Virus record (IMG/VR): IMGVR_UViG_3300015199_000008 | Location: 1-37,129 of that record | Strand: one strand, 5' to 3' | DNA length: 37,129 bases | Source: a virus | Shown: positions 5,622 to 24,165 of the stretch, one piece after another | Layout of the letters: every line of letters starts with the position of its first letter | Position numbering within the stretch: position 1 is the first letter of the stretch | Translations under genes and position numbers: made by a program | The notes under the pieces: generated by a model | What the model saw: only the letters and a program-made list of their open reading frames with translations | Told to the model about the DNA's origin: nothing | Databases searched by the model: none

Positions 5622-5842
5622 ACGACCCCCGAGGGACGCCGCGAGCACCAGGCGAGAATCTGATCGAGCTGGAACTCCGGCGCCGCGACGAGAGCGACCA
5701 TCTCCCGGTACGGAGCGTGCTCGGCGCAGAAGGAGCGCGGCGGCGCTCCTGGGGTCGTGCGCAGGCAGTTCGAGCAGCCAGCGTGCGCGCACCAGTAGAT
5801 CCATGAGCGGACTTGGACGGCGGTGGTGATCGAGGTCGTCAT
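5618..5842 (-). CDS. Cys-rich small protein
   Basis: 74 residues, MTTSITTAVQVRSWIYWCAH onward. Cys18, Cys23 and Cys26 with nearby His (WCAHAGCSNC) and a further Cys39-x2-His (FCAEHAP) could form one zinc knuckle. It overlaps both neighbours by ATGA. The C-terminal half is helical (MVALVAAPEFQLDQILAWCS). Likely a small nucleic-acid or protein adaptor of the early operon; unrecognised. Confidence 0.65.
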   Translation of the reverse strand: MTTSITTAVQVRSWIYWCAHAGCSNCLRTTPGAPPRSFCAEHAPYREMVALVAAPEFQLDQILAWCSRRPSGVV

Positions 5843-6279
5843 CGTCCAGCCTTCACGCGCAGCGAAGCGCCCTCAAGGATGGCCTGCCCGGCGACGCCGT
5901 TCTGTCGGCACTCGTCCTTGAGCGCGCGCAGCTCTTCCTCCGGCGAAGCCTTGCGCCGCTGCCACTCCGGCATGCGCATCCCGAGACCGTCGCAGACGAC
6001 GATCTGCGCCAGCCGCTCGTTGCGCGTGCGCCGCCCGACGAAGAGCGCCGTCCGAAGCGAGAGGCGCGTCTCGTAGTTCGGCGACAGCTCCCGCGAAAGC
6101 TGCCCCTTGCTCACGTCGGTTCCGTCGCAGATCTCTTTGTGCCCGATCATCCGCGCGAGCGGGTCGAGCAACGCCAGCGCCTCGCGCTCAAGCCGCGCCC
6201 ACCGCTCCCGCTCGTCAGCCTCCGAGTCGACGAACCCGGCGAGATCGGCGGAAACCTCGTTGTTGTCGACGCTTGCCAC
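5839..6279 (-). CDS. HTH regulator, possible CII-like position
   Basis: 146 residues from GTG 6279 (VASVDNNEVSADLAGF), preceded by GGAAAGGG at nine bases. A longer GTG at 6363 is possible but has no ribosome site. The middle holds a plausible HTH: MIGHKEICDGTDVSKGQLSR, continuing ELSPNYETRLSLRTALFV. The end is basic. It is the second gene after the Cro-like gene in the leftward operon, the place of CII-type activators in lambdoid phages. That parallel is positional only. The 5' region carries three CGGAAA repeats (about 6294-6322) that might be a binding site. Confidence 0.65.
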   Translation of the reverse strand: MASVDNNEVSADLAGFVDSEADERERWARLEREALALLDPLARMIGHKEICDGTDVSKGQLSRELSPNYETRLSLRTALFVGRRTRNERLAQIVVCDGLGMRMPEWQRRKASPEEELRALKDECRQNGVAGQAILEGASLRVKAGR

Positions 6280-6375
6280 CCGTCCAGCCCTTTCCGGAAA
6301 ATCTGTTTCCGCAGTTTCCGACGCCCCGCGAGGTACAAAAAAGGCGTGCAGCCGCAGCCACACGCCGGAAAGGAA

Positions 6376-6618
6376 CTAGGCAGCCTTGGTACCGCGCCTC
6401 CCGCGCCCGGAAGGGGAAGAGGTGACCCATGCGGACGCAGGCACCTTGCCGCCGGTCGCCCGTTCGATCGCCAGCGCCTTTTCGAGCCCCGGCGACCTTC
6501 GCCCAGAGAGGATGTGGAACAGCGTGGACTCGTTGATCTCCGCGCGAACGGCAAACGCGCTTGGCTTCTCGTCTCTGCTCCGGAGGTAACTCCTCAACGC
6601 GGCGATTGGGTCGCTCAT
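6376..6618 (-). CDS. Cro/YdaS-like HTH protein
   Basis: 80 residues, MSDPIAALRSYLRSRDEKPS onward. The HTH spans residues 18-46 (KPSAFAVRAEINESTLFHIL, SGRR), followed by ALAIERATGGKVPASAW, the signature seen in YdaS/Cro-type regulators of prophages. It is the first gene of the leftward operon, divergent from the repressor, so it is the likely Cro counterpart that commits to lytic growth. The predicted transcription start lies about two bases before the ATG and no ribosome site is seen, so the message may be leaderless. A short basic Ser/Gly tail ends the protein. Confidence 0.8.
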   Translation of the reverse strand: MSDPIAALRSYLRSRDEKPSAFAVRAEINESTLFHILSGRRSPGLEKALAIERATGGKVPASAWVTSSPSGRGRRGTKAA

Positions 6619-6634
6619 GGCTCGGGCCTATAAC
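6606..6634 (+). promoter_or_regulatory. Putative repressor promoter (PRM-like)
   Basis: TTGGGT (6606-6611), 17 bases, then TATAAC (6629-6634, 5 of 6 matches to the sigma-70 -10). It points right, toward the repressor. Its -10 overlaps the -10 of the divergent leftward promoter, so the two polymerases should exclude each other. The start near 6641 falls inside the first operator, giving an obvious means of self-repression. Confidence 0.45.
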
Positions 6635-6656
6635 ATGGCTACCGCCAGCATGGCAA
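6627..6656 (-). promoter_or_regulatory. Early leftward promoter
   Basis: Read on the minus strand: TTGCCA (6656-6651), 18 bases, TATAGG (6632-6627), with a TGT just before the -10 (extended -10). It drives the Cro-like gene and the replication genes. One operator site fills the spacer and the second overlaps the -35, so a bound repressor would block polymerase. The predicted start is about 6620, almost at the ATG of the Cro-like gene. Confidence 0.6.
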
Positions 6657-6663
6657 CAGCCAG
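6635..6663. promoter_or_regulatory. Twin repressor operators, left
   Basis: Two palindromic sites: ATGGCTACCGCCAG (6635-6648) and ATGGCAACAGCCAG (6650-6663). Both have the core TGGC-N4-GCCA and their centres are 15 bases apart. The same core recurs at the rightward early promoter (7506-7519), and I saw it in this paired arrangement nowhere else. Binding by the XRE repressor, the Cro-like protein or both is inferred from position. Confidence 0.7.
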
Positions 6664-6709
6664 TTACCCGCCCACCGCCAAGGCCGGGTTGAGCGAGGGT
6701 GTTTTCGCC

Positions 6710-7063
6710 GTGGCATACACCCCGACAGAAATCGACCTTCGCGTCGCCGCGCACATACGCCGATTGTCGCAAACCCGTTTCGGGAGCACCTACGCGCTCG
6801 CGAAAAAGATCGAGGCCGATCCGTCTACGCTCTACAAGATTCTATCGGGCAGCAGAGGCGTAGGAGTGGACACGCTGCACCGGCTGCACAAGGTCCTCGG
6901 TATTTCGGCCGACGTGTTTCTCGACGACGATCCGGACGCGAAATTCTGGAAGCCCGGGCCCGACGAGGGCCGCCGAGGACGAAGACCGGCAGAGCGACTG
7001 ATCCCGGCAGAATCGCCGCCCATCCCTCACCAGCCCGCGCGCCGGAACGGATCCATCCGGTAG
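6710..7063 (+). CDS. Short XRE-family phage repressor
   Basis: 117 residues from GTG 6710, chosen because GAGGG lies ten bases upstream and because any earlier ATG (6617, 6635, 6650) would run the frame through the operators. An HTH of the Cro/CI type covers about residues 10-60: DLRVAAHIRRLSQTRFGSTY, then ALAKKIEADPSTLYKILSGS and GVDTLHRLHKVLGIS. The C-terminus is a short disordered basic tail. There is no S24 peptidase domain, so RecA-driven self-cleavage is not expected and induction must work otherwise. Likely maintains lysogeny from the flanking operator pairs. Confidence 0.75.
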   Translation: MAYTPTEIDLRVAAHIRRLSQTRFGSTYALAKKIEADPSTLYKILSGSRGVGVDTLHRLHKVLGISADVFLDDDPDAKFWKPGPDEGRRGRRPAERLIPAESPPIPHQPARRNGSIR

Positions 7064-7158
7064 CCAGCGAACGGCGACGGTGATCCGGCTCGTCGACTTC
7101 CTGAAAACCAAAACGCCACCGTCGGACGGCTGAGACACGAGCCTCGACGGCCAAGGAT

Positions 7159-7434
7159 CTAGCTGTACGCGTAGAACCGCGAAACCACCCAAGCGACCAA
7201 CGCACCCGCCAGAAGCCATGGTGTGGCCGGCGCCGCCTCGGTGTTGAAGATGGAGACGCAGCCCGCGAACCCTAGCAGGTACGCAAGAGCGAGCGTGCTG
7301 TTGAAGGTCCTCTTCGCGCGAACCACCTGCGGGGCGGCGGGAGCACGCGCAGCGATCGGACGACCGCAGCTGATGCATGCAACGGCGCTGTCCGACACCC
7401 TGGTCTTGCAGTCTGGACACTCGATGAGAGCCAC
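7159..7434 (-). CDS. Zinc-ribbon membrane protein in the immunity region
   Basis: 91 residues from GTG 7434, with AAGGGG five bases upstream; a longer ATG at 7488 lacks a ribosome site. The N-terminus is a clean zinc ribbon, CPDCKTRVSDSAVACISCGR (Cys-x2-Cys-x11-Cys-x2-Cys). A linker follows, then two hydrophobic segments (LALAYLLGFAGCVSIF and ATPWLLAGALVAWVVSRFY), so it is an inner-membrane protein with the ribbon in the cytoplasm. It faces the repressor tail to tail and lies between the two operator pairs, the usual place for genes expressed in lysogens. Superinfection exclusion or host-membrane modification is a fair guess, not shown. Confidence 0.7.
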   Translation of the reverse strand: MALIECPDCKTRVSDSAVACISCGRPIAARAPAAPQVVRAKRTFNSTLALAYLLGFAGCVSIFNTEAAPATPWLLAGALVAWVVSRFYAYS

Positions 7435-7486
7435 GGGATCCCCTTGCCCCAGAGAGGGGAACACCCCGCGTTCGGCAGCGCAATAC

Positions 7487-7519
7487 ATGGCAGTTGACAG
7501 CTAACATGGCATCTGCCAT
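7487..7519. promoter_or_regulatory. Twin repressor operators, right
   Basis: A perfect palindrome ATGGCATCTGCCAT (7506-7519; arms ATGGCA/TGCCAT) plus a degenerate copy ATGGCAGTTGACAG (7487-7500) whose centre is 19 bases away. The perfect site lies across the spacer and the first bases of the -10. The weak one overlaps the -35. This mirrors the left operator pair and would let one repressor silence both early transcripts. Confidence 0.7.
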
Positions 7520-7522
7520 ATT
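7494..7522 (+). promoter_or_regulatory. Early rightward promoter
   Basis: TTGACA (7494-7499, perfect -35), exactly 17 bases, CATATT (7517-7522), with TGC before the -10 (extended -10). The predicted start is near 7530 and the first gene begins at 7552. It is the strongest promoter I see in the window and reads the operon that ends with the integrase. Confidence 0.8.
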
Positions 7523-7551: not shown

Positions 7552-7998
7552 ATGCCGAACACGAACGGTCACGCAGAAGCCGCCCACAAGTCGAAGGTGC
7601 TCGAAGTCATCGCGGCGGTCAGCGAGTCCGCCGCCGCGAACCCTCTCTACCGCGACGACCCCGCAGCGCTCGCGGCGTCGATTGAGGCGGCGCCTGCGTC
7701 GTGGTGGACGGCCGTCGCGGAGGTCGTGACCAGGCGCCGCGAGGCGAACGGCGACACCCGCACCTGCCACGCTCCCTCCGCCGAGACCGTCGCCGAGGTG
7801 GTGGCGCACTTTCGCGCGCGCCTCACGCCGCTGGAGCGCGCGTCGATGGCGATGGCGGAGGGCGGCGCGAGCGGGTCGAGCTGCGACCCCGACGAGTCGA
7901 TGGAGTTTCTGACCGCTTCCGATAGGCATCTCTTCCGCGAGATTCAGGAGCGCCACGCCCTCAACTCGCTGGACTCGGCCAAGTGGGACGCCCGATGA
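7552..7998 (+). CDS. Hypothetical early protein
   Basis: 148 residues from ATG 7552, with GGAGG eight bases upstream. It is helical and acidic, with motifs VLEVIAAVSESAAANPLYRD and SWWTAVAEVVTRRREANGDT. It is the first gene of the rightward operon, 22 bases after the predicted transcription start, so it should be the most strongly expressed early product. Its central region resembles the next gene: both have an 'xASW/DPQWTxxAExxxxR/K...APSxxT...VxAHxRA/AH' layout. The two may therefore be diverged paralogues. Confidence 0.75.
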   Translation: MPNTNGHAEAAHKSKVLEVIAAVSESAAANPLYRDDPAALAASIEAAPASWWTAVAEVVTRRREANGDTRTCHAPSAETVAEVVAHFRARLTPLERASMAMAEGGASGSSCDPDESMEFLTASDRHLFREIQERHALNSLDSAKWDAR

Positions 7999-19503: not shown

Positions 19504-19745
19504 GGCACAGGCTCCGGGGCCGGGGTCACCGTGTCGCCGTGCATGGCGACGCCGATGGCCGCGAGCACCGACAGCACCCGGACGGCGACGGCGAGCCAGT
19601 GCGCAATCGGCTCGAGCTGGTCGGCGTAGACGGTGCCGGAGATCGCGAGCGCGCCGACGCCAGCGCGGGCCCAGCGCCGGAACTTTTTTTCGTCATGGAA
19701 GAGCGCCCAGACGCAGAGGCGCAGCGTGTGAAGAAAGGGGATCAT
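19500..19745 (-). CDS. Holin-like membrane protein
   Basis: 81 residues. Two hydrophobic stretches (about 28-41, AGVGALAISGTVYA, and 50-69, WLAVAVRVLSVLAAIGVAMH) are separated by a short acidic loop. The N-terminus is amphipathic with Lys/Arg, and the tail is Pro-rich. Size, topology and position directly after the endolysin suit a holin, which opens the inner membrane at lysis. The family cannot be named from sequence alone. ATGA overlap with the endolysin. Confidence 0.6.
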   Translation of the reverse strand: MIPFLHTLRLCVWALFHDEKKFRRWARAGVGALAISGTVYADQLEPIAHWLAVAVRVLSVLAAIGVAMHGDTVTPAPEPVP

Positions 19746-20308
19746 GCGAACCTCAGGCTCAGCGCCCCGAGCACGTCGCAGGCGCGGTCGTAGTTCTTGT
19801 GCCGCTCGAGCAGCCCGTTCAGGCCGCCGTTGATCTTCCGGGTGGCGCCGTCGATGTCGCCCTTGTCGGAGAAGGCGTTGAGCCCGTTGGTGAGCCAGAA
19901 CCAGGCCGACACCCGAAAGGCGTTCTCCGGCTGCGCGGCGAGCTCCGGGTGGTCGAGCAGCGGCAGGCCCAAGGAGGCGCTGGCGCGGATATAGTTGGCG
20001 CGCCCGGTGAGCTGGATGGCACCGCGACCCTTGAAGCGCTGGCCGTCGCCTGGCTGCGTGTTCCCCAGGCGCGCAGCGAGCTTCGGGTTGATCGAGAGGT
20101 CGTAGGCGGCTCCGTTCGCGTACTCCTCGAAGGTGCGGAAGTGGTCGCTCTCGTGCTCGAGCTGCGCGACGTACATCGCGAGCCGCAGCGGGCGATCGAT
20201 CTGCGCCGCCGCCAGCGAGGCGTTGAGGTGCGGCAAGATCTCCACGCAGCGCGACGCCCGCGTGTAGATGGCGCAGCGCTGGAGCTGCAGCGCGGAGAGG
20301 GAGATCAT
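19742..20308 (-). CDS. GH19-family endolysin (chitinase-like muramidase)
   Basis: 188 residues. The GH19 core is plain: MYVAQLEHESDHFRTFEEYA (45-64) with the catalytic Glu in HES (Glu53) and a second acid in FEEY, LGNTQPGDGQRFKGRGAIQL (81-100), TGRANY, then AFRVSAWFWLTNGLNAFSDK and INGGLNGLLERHKNYDRA. In Gram-negative phages this domain cuts peptidoglycan sugars. There is no signal peptide, so release needs the holin. The gene starts in a four-base overlap with a frame continuing from the GH24 relic upstream, suggesting it replaced that lysozyme. Confidence 0.92.
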   Translation of the reverse strand: MISLSALQLQRCAIYTRASRCVEILPHLNASLAAAQIDRPLRLAMYVAQLEHESDHFRTFEEYANGAAYDLSINPKLAARLGNTQPGDGQRFKGRGAIQLTGRANYIRASASLGLPLLDHPELAAQPENAFRVSAWFWLTNGLNAFSDKGDIDGATRKINGGLNGLLERHKNYDRACDVLGALSLRFA

Positions 20309-20355: not shown

Positions 20356-20826
20356 ATGGCCATGTCCGCAGAAGAGCGCCGACGCCGAGGCGTCATTTCC
20401 TCCCAGAAGTGGCGCGCTAAGAATCTCGACCGCGCTCTCGCCGCCGACCGCGCAAGACGCAAGCGGTACTACGCTGCGAATAAAGACAAAGTCATCGCGG
20501 CGAACGAAGCTTGGCGCAAGGCGAACCCTGAGAAATTCAAAGCCGCGTGGCAACGACGCAATGCGATCGGTGGACGAGCGCTGCGGCTCAGGCTCGCGTA
20601 CGGAATGACCGTTGAGGCGTGGACGGTCTTGTTCGAGTCGCAAGGCAAGGCTTGCGCACTGTGTCGCACAGGTGAGCCCGGCGGACGAAGAGGATGGCAC
20701 ACCGACCACGACCACGGCACCGGTCTCGTGCGCGGCATCCTCTGCCACCGCTGCAACACCGGCCTCGGTCTTCTTGGCGATTCGCTGACAGCCCTGACGG
20801 CCGCTGTCGAGTATCTGCGGCGCTGA
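20356..20826 (+). CDS. Endonuclease VII-type HNH nuclease inside the lysis cassette
   Basis: 156 residues, rightward against the lysis genes. The N-terminal half is a basic helix with the 'RRKRYYAANKDKVIAANEAW' repeats common in this group. The nuclease part has CALC (100-103), WHTDHDHGTG (Asp117, His118, Asp119, His120), GLVRGILCHRCNTGLGLLGD (Cys130, Cys133, Asn134). This is the endonuclease VII / T4 gp49 ββα-metal core, found in many mobile phage HNH genes. A TAAAAT box (20345-20350) lies just before the ATG with no ribosome site. It sits against the truncated GH24 lysozyme end. Confidence 0.88.
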   Translation: MAMSAEERRRRGVISSQKWRAKNLDRALAADRARRKRYYAANKDKVIAANEAWRKANPEKFKAAWQRRNAIGGRALRLRLAYGMTVEAWTVLFESQGKACALCRTGEPGGRRGWHTDHDHGTGLVRGILCHRCNTGLGLLGDSLTALTAAVEYLRR

Positions 20827-23338: not shown

Positions 23339-23500
23339 ATGCCAAAGCGTTCTAACATGACGAGCAAAGAGCTTGTGCGGAACGTCTCAGACGCCGTGAG
23401 CCGTGCCGCGTTCGGGAAAGAGACCATCACGATCACGCGGAACGGGAAGCCCCTTTGCGTGCTGATGCCTTACGAGAAACCGAAGAAAGGGAAGGAATGA
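23339..23500 (+). CDS. Phd/YefM-family antitoxin-like protein
   Basis: 53 residues from ATG 23339 (a second ATG at 23357 is possible). MTSKELVRNVSDAVSRAAFG, KETITITRNGKPLCVLMPYE is the full Phd/YefM DNA-binding domain: 'elr.n.s.v..r...ge.i.ItrnGkp.avl.p'. The toxin-binding C-terminal tail is short and basic (KPKKGKE) instead of the usual long acidic or disordered one. The downstream partner, coupled by ATGA, is a nuclease of the endonuclease VII type rather than Doc or YoeB. It reads against the baseplate operon. Confidence 0.8.
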   Translation: MPKRSNMTSKELVRNVSDAVSRAAFGKETITITRNGKPLCVLMPYEKPKKGKE

Positions 23501-24165
23501 AGGCGTGTTCGAAGTGCGGCGGAGCCCGCGAGCGCACTACCGGCGGACTGCTACTAAAGTGCCGCCAGTGTCATGCTCGTCGGGAGCGTGAGCGGAAAGC
23601 AAAGAACCCGGAGGAGGAAAAGGAGCGCCAGCGCGCGTATCGCGTCAAGAACCTCGAACGGAAGCGTGAGTGGCAGAAGGCTTACTACGCCAAGAACATT
23701 GACCGGATGCACAAGTTGAGGCGCGTGCTCCGGGCCAAGAACGCGGTCAAGATAAAGGAAGCGAACCGCGTGTGGTACGCCAAGAACAAAGCAAGGCAGA
23801 ACGAGAAGTCGCGCGCATATTACGCAAACAACGCCGAACGAATGAAGTGGCTGGTGCGGATCGACCGCTGGAAGAAACACGGGATTACTATTACATGGGA
23901 TCAGTACGAACGCATGGAGGCGATGCAGGACTTCTGCTGCGCCAATCCGGGTTGCCGAATCAACCTAGGCAAGGGCGAGCTGGTCCCAGATCACGACCAC
24001 GCATTCGGCGACGCGATCTTCGGAAACGTACGCGGCCTGCTGTGCAGCGCATGCAACACGGCCGGCGGACTCCTGCGCGACAGCCCGCTACGGATGCGCG
24101 GCCTCGCGACGTATCACGAGAAGCATCCGCCGCGATTAGGTGACCCTACACCCCGGAAAAGGTGA
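23497..24165 (+). CDS. Endonuclease VII-type HNH nuclease coupled to an antitoxin-like gene
   Basis: 222 residues. A zinc ribbon (CSKC 4-7, CRQC 22-25) starts the protein. Then three to four repeats of about 18-20 residues rich in Tyr-Ala-Lys-Asn (KAYYAKNIDRMHKL, RVWYAKNKARQNEK, RAYYANNAERMKW) form a basic helical arm. The nuclease core follows: CC...C (147-153), VPDHDHA (Asp165, His166, Asp167, His168), NVRGLLCSACNTAGGLLRD (Cys183, Cys186, Asn187). It is A/T-richer than its neighbours. The last 20 bases overlap the end of the baseplate J gene on the other strand. Confidence 0.85.
   Translation: MKACSKCGGARERTTGGLLLKCRQCHARRERERKAKNPEEEKERQRAYRVKNLERKREWQKAYYAKNIDRMHKLRRVLRAKNAVKIKEANRVWYAKNKARQNEKSRAYYANNAERMKWLVRIDRWKKHGITITWDQYERMEAMQDFCCANPGCRINLGKGELVPDHDHAFGDAIFGNVRGLLCSACNTAGGLLRDSPLRMRGLATYHEKHPPRLGDPTPRKR

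Follow-up and report, generated by a model that had tools for sequence, protein, structure and literature searches.

A putative lysogeny switch with two operator regions

Do the two small helix-turn-helix (HTH) genes and the repeated sites at positions 6376 to 7522 of the virus record IMGVR_UViG_3300015199_000008 form a lysogeny switch, and if so, of what type? The window, that is, the whole stretch of DNA analysed, is the full record of this IMG/VR virus contig (37,129 bp, G+C content 67.7%), which has no assigned host. It is a temperate myovirus. Its products include a DnaB-like helicase, a RusA-like resolvase, an exonuclease VIII-like protein, a tyrosine-type integrase and a tail sheath, and its major head protein is of a type known from Mu-like phages. 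The nearest named phage for the head and tail proteins is Myxococcus phage Mx4, with a capsid identity of ~40%. The region in question is very probably a lambda-type immunity region in mirror image, in which 6710-7063 encodes the repressor and 6376-6618 the Cro counterpart. As expected of a lambda-type region, these two genes are divergent with operators between them, and a second operator with the same sites lies at the other early promoter, past the repressor gene. The replication genes (DnaB and RusA) are on the left arm with the Cro-like gene, and the recombination and integration genes (exonuclease VIII-like and integrase) are on the opposite, right arm.

The putative prophage repressor is an XRE-type HTH protein of 117 amino acids (aa), encoded on the plus strand and matched by Pfam HTH_3 and HTH_26. 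Its structural model consists of the HTH and a low-confidence tail (mean predicted local distance difference test score 64, from an alignment of two sequences), and a fold search with this model brought up nothing more specific than XRE folds in general, all with E above 0.001. The Cro-like HTH protein (80 aa, minus strand) was matched by Pfam HTH_3 below the cut-off and by PHROG 35. Its best PDB matches were weak and were named Cro, and its matches among phages include annotated Cro-like proteins. In three of those phages, the gene divergent to the Cro-like homologue is a repressor gene or an unnamed one in the same position; in a fourth, a Synechococcus phage, the stretch is annotated otherwise, yet the sequence there matches the Nostoc phage. 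The annotated CI-like repressor of Paracoccus phage Pthi1 (L036 2108-2560), divergent to the homologue of the 80-aa protein, is also just 103 aa long.

Operator sites and promoters

The first-pass annotation of this DNA had proposed four related sites in two pairs, each pair covering the -35 and the spacer of a divergent early promoter. Both proposals were borne out, with three exact cores, one site with a single mismatch, and the same geometry on the left and on the right. On the left, site 1 (6635-6648, ATGGCTACCGCCAG; exact core) lies in the spacer of the leftward early promoter of the Cro-like gene (6627-6656, minus strand; TTGCCA-18-TATAGG with an extended -10, TG). Its tandem copy, site 2 (6650-6663, ATGGCAACAGCCAG; exact core), holds the -35 of that promoter (minus-strand TTGCCA, site positions 8-13). 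On the right, site 3 (7487-7500, ATGGCAGTTGACAG; one mismatch) holds at positions 8-13 the -35 TTGACA of the rightward early promoter (7494-7522, plus strand; TTGACA-17-CATATT with an extended -10, TG), which fits the consensus better than any other sequence in the region. Site 4 (7506-7519, ATGGCATCTGCCAT), a full palindrome, covers the spacer and the first -10 bases of the same promoter. Followed in the direction of transcription, the two pairs share one layout, with the -35 in the upstream site and the downstream site in the spacer. Counted from the start of the -35, the operator core begins after 13 bp at the right promoter and after 9 bp at the left one. Undirected searching for repeats in each operator region recovered the identical pairs, spaced 15 and 19 bp. 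On the plus strand all four sites read ATGGC....G(C/A)CA, so that the mirror image claimed for the pairs is one of placement with respect to the promoters and not one of site sequence.

A scan of the whole phage for the core TGGC-N4-GCCA (TGGCNNNNGCCA) gave three exact matches in 37,129 bp, at 6636, 6651 and 7507, all within the named sites. In shuffled windows 1.07 exact matches were expected and 8 of 100 shuffles reached three; the count alone is therefore weak support, and it is the placement that matters. The fourth site, at 7488 (TGGCAGTTGACA), has one mismatch to the core. The 8-base core with one mismatch was found at 44 places in the window against 26 expected, and because such copies are common the bare core is a poor search motif. 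The extended motif ACATGGCN4GCCAK, with at most one mismatch, occurs solely at the four sites (7504-7521 on both strands) and at one further place, 22931, compared with 0.15 per strand in shuffles. The operator had been thought clear enough to search for elsewhere. This is the case for the extended motif together with its context, but not for the bare core: nine loci came up in an exact-tandem scan of IMG/VR, and on inspection none was phage-switch-like; they appear to be coding or repetitive.

A third promoter, pointing to the repressor and sharing its -10 with the leftward one, had also been predicted, and this candidate stands with a weaker score (6606-6634, plus strand; TTGGGT-17-TATAAC). 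The two left promoters face each other and have the TATA at 6629-6632 in common, suggesting that polymerase is probably excluded from occupying both at once. The predicted start of the repressor promoter (~6641) falls inside site 1, so that repressor bound at site 1 would also limit its own synthesis. A possible weak fifth site (6617-6630, ATGGCTCGGGCCTA) lies in the spacer of the repressor promoter; this copy (TGGCTCGGGCCT, 6618-6629) has one mismatch and may be due to chance.

The same plan in a second phage

The Cro-like protein as a query reached a second phage, IMGVR_UViG_3300004184_000007 (53.5 kb, hereafter G001), and the 117-aa protein, run against that record, matched a homologue adjoining the Cro-like gene. 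The two HTH genes are all that the phages have in common among the 51 open reading frames (ORFs) of the window compared by tblastn (E<=1e-3), with a likeness of 49% over 37 aa and 38% over 58 aa. In G001 the HTH genes are divergent, and between them lies a seven-site array of TRGC-N4-GCTA variants with a repeated 65-bp unit. A second promoter with two further sites (a 35-bp pair) is located past the repressor gene and a neighbouring HExxH gene. The G001 operator motif, TRGC-N4-GCYA, is a sister of that of the window, and it stands at the cro promoter and beyond the repressor operon. All eight AGCTACA/TGTAGCT words in the 53.5 kb fall within these two operator regions. From the start of the -35 to the operator core there are 13 bp at both G001 promoters, and hence at three of the four promoters of the two phages. 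Only 8 nt separate the -10 from the ATG of the Cro-like gene in the window, and 7 nt in G001, suggesting that the Cro-like mRNAs of both phages are probably leaderless. The arrangement of the sites differs, with pairs 15 and 19 bp apart in the window as opposed to the seven-site array and the 35-bp pair of G001.

The sites, the promoter geometry and the gene layout can be read directly from the sequence, as can the conservation of the two-operator plan in the second phage, and G001 is a second, independent example of the same module. The presence of the same two regulators and a sister site in the same places of an otherwise unrelated phage suggests that the switch is real. Another record, 3300024895_000007, overlaps G001 with 99.998% identity over 41.7 kb and, being near-identical to it, is not an independent case.

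Other searches added no further copy. Repressor relatives were found neither in IMG/VR with a single-sequence query nor in the phage collection, and the two-sequence repressor alignment as a query returned G001 again and nothing further. A DnaB query for relatives and a DNA search against the phage collection gave nothing. Capsid queries did reach phages with related heads (Mx4 and metagenomic contigs); in these records neither the repressor nor the tandem pattern revealed the switch a second time, and one exact match lay in a Microvirga genome.

How the switch may work

In a lysogen, repressor dimers would occupy sites 1 and 2 and sites 3 and 4. Since each pair covers the -35 and the spacer of an early promoter, the leftward and rightward operons would both be off. 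The leftward operon silenced in this way would begin with the Cro-like gene and continue with replication genes, DnaB and RusA among them; the rightward one would comprise the exonuclease VIII-like recombination gene and the integrase. After infection or induction, the leftward promoter would yield the Cro-like protein first, along with replication functions, and the rightward promoter recombination and integration functions. The Cro-like protein would bind the same sites and shut the repressor promoter, the start of which is predicted in site 1 and the TATA of which is shared with the leftward promoter. We infer the identity of the binding protein, the order of occupancy, any looping across 854 bp and the role of the Cro-like protein.

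A wider reading, which we put forward tentatively, is that the two HTH genes and two operator regions are an exchangeable immunity cassette common to otherwise unrelated phages. The TRGC-N4-GCYA core and a near-fixed -35 register would be kept, whereas the number of sites and the distance between them vary. The short repressors, which lack the C-terminal domain of CI, would work at both ends, perhaps through looping; the Cro-like mRNA would be leaderless, and the repressor and Cro promoters would be mutually exclusive through the shared TATA.

For phages with Mx4-like heads and tails, a group in which few immunity systems have been studied, the switch would define an operator and its pair of regulators. 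The TGGC and TAGC half-sites, set against the two recognition helices, may offer a natural test of specificity change in small phage repressors. They may also test whether a repressor without a peptidase or oligomerisation domain silences two operators 0.85 kb apart.

Alternative explanations

Several points weigh against a mirror-image lambda-type immunity region. Just one relative with the same module was found, and the motif that covers both phages, TRGC-N4-GCYA, was formulated with the two sequences already in view. Three exact cores also arise in 8% of shuffles and are no rarity in themselves. The repressor promoter fits the consensus weakly, the final -10 position not being T, and the sigma factors of the host may have other preferences. 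Finally, all of the support comes from sequence.

The alternative that survives best, although we consider it improbable, is that the roles are swapped, with the 80-aa protein as the lysogenic repressor and the 117-aa protein as its Cro-like or antirepressor partner. In its favour, both are small HTH proteins and neither has a peptidase domain. However, the 117-aa gene lies between the operators, like cI, and its counterpart in G001 is followed by the HExxH gene (ImmA-type by eye, with a weak PHROG match). Still less credible is a role of the two HTH proteins outside the lysogeny switch, as a toxin-antitoxin or restriction-control (C-protein) regulator that has operators of its own. Generic fold matches to C.Esp1396I, HipB and HigA point in this direction, as does a sub-threshold match to the NCBIfam HigA antitoxin (TIGR02607, 25.7 bits against a cut-off of 47.7). 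Against it, Pfam and PHROG scans recognised no adjoining toxin, methylase or nuclease, the same sites recur 850 bp away in a second promoter that opens the other early operon, and the phage Cro homologues are located in immunity regions. Identity as a HigA antitoxin is not supported, given the sub-threshold score and no match to a HigB toxin in the adjoining genes. It is highly unlikely that ordinary promoter regions carry these repeats by chance: the core is short, its one-mismatch copies are scattered and some shuffles reach three exact sites, but all three exact sites lie in two ~35-bp promoter regions of the same geometry, the extended motif is nearly confined to the promoter sites, and the same plan recurs in G001.

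Induction

The first-pass annotation described a repressor of ~117 residues without a protease domain, and concluded that induction cannot be by the usual RecA route. The description stands: Pfam and PHROG gave only HTH matches for the repressor and no S24 or other peptidase domain, and no Ala-Gly or Cys-Gly dipeptide occurs in its 117 residues. Direct RecA-stimulated self-cleavage of the repressor is unlikely for these reasons, but the conclusion was too strong. The repressors of the Gifsy phages are not cleaved upon induction, as predicted for that of the window, and are countered by a LexA-controlled antirepressor (PMC3121763); a phage without a cleavable repressor can therefore respond to SOS nonetheless. 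The window differs from the Gifsy phages in that no antirepressor was recognised, none of its scanned ORFs matching an antirepressor family profile. LexA boxes of three known types, searched with general consensus sequences that may differ from the LexA motif of the host, did not exceed chance in the window.

The gene after the G001 repressor (L002 3613-4098, minus strand) encodes HELLHG (HExxH) and a downstream helix, resembling by eye an ImmA/IrrE metalloprotease; its match to the PHROG 87 metallo-protease is weak (E 0.32). If this metalloprotease is real, the G001 relative could be induced via proteolytic cleavage of its repressor.

Comparison with known switches

The plan of the switch is already known, being that of lambda mirrored, and the closest published detail is that of PaaR2/YdaS of CP-933P. 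The lambda immunity region comprises oL/pL, cI-rexA-rexB, oR/pR/pRM and cro. There too, the repressor has on either side an operator region with an outward early promoter, cro is on the replication arm and the exonuclease and integrase on the other, and an accessory gene lies between the operators. The window differs from lambda in its mirror orientation, in having two sites per operator instead of three, in its 117-aa repressor without a C-terminal peptidase/oligomerisation domain, and in its face-to-face repressor and Cro promoters with a shared TATA.

The CP-933P repressor, in E. coli O157:H7, has no peptidase motif and acts on PR/PRM as well as on a PL-like second promoter (PMC8630535). 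Like the window, CP-933P has a divergent small HTH repressor and Cro-like gene, no RecA-responsive peptidase motif, related operators at the PL-like promoter, upstream of the far side of the repressor operon, and one leaderless regulator mRNA (PMC8630535). This likeness is one of layout (small HTH repressor, Cro-like partner, PL-like second operator). The leaderless gene is the repressor gene paaR2 in CP-933P, whereas in the window it is predicted to be the Cro-like gene. The CP-933P operators are GTTTAGTAA inverted repeats, and its repressor operon holds a toxin-antitoxin pair. Further differences lie in the orientation, in the repressor and Cro promoters, which face each other in the window, and in the probable host group. 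The immB regions of the telomere phages PY54 and N15 also have a CI/Cro pair and small operator sets, with a second operator region in N15, and PY54 has leaderless regulator mRNAs as predicted in the window (PMC4488713). They are likened here by layout, and differ in their 16-18 bp palindromic operators and their gene context. Phage switches with leaderless regulator mRNAs are thus already on record (PMC4488713, PMC8630535).

Neighbouring genes and other features

A strong intrinsic terminator (6343-6366, minus strand) lies 10 bp past the stop of the Cro-like gene, in the position of tR1. No good promoter was scored on the minus strand from there to the following gene of the DnaB operon, so that transcription of the replication arm may depend on read-through or antitermination, as at lambda tR1. 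The gene that follows in the leftward operon (5839-6279, minus strand) has no family match and lies in the position of lambda cII, the role of which it may share. Its product, past the terminator, looks HTH-like by eye (GHKEICDGTDVSKGQLSRELS).

Between the two operators, on the strand opposite to the repressor, lies a gene for a zinc-ribbon protein (7159-7434, minus strand; Pfam Zn_ribbon_3 below the cut-off, PHROG 10292) with a hydrophobic C-terminal stretch. Its position recalls lambda rex, and a scan for a leftward promoter of this gene scored none. The first gene of the rightward early operon (7552-7998, plus strand), called from its ORF and position, has no assigned function.

Elsewhere in the window, 19742-20308 (minus strand) encodes a GH19 chitinase-class protein (Pfam PF00182), probably the endolysin. 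Endonuclease VII-type genes are present as two separate copies, at 20356-20826 and 23455-24165, both on the plus strand.
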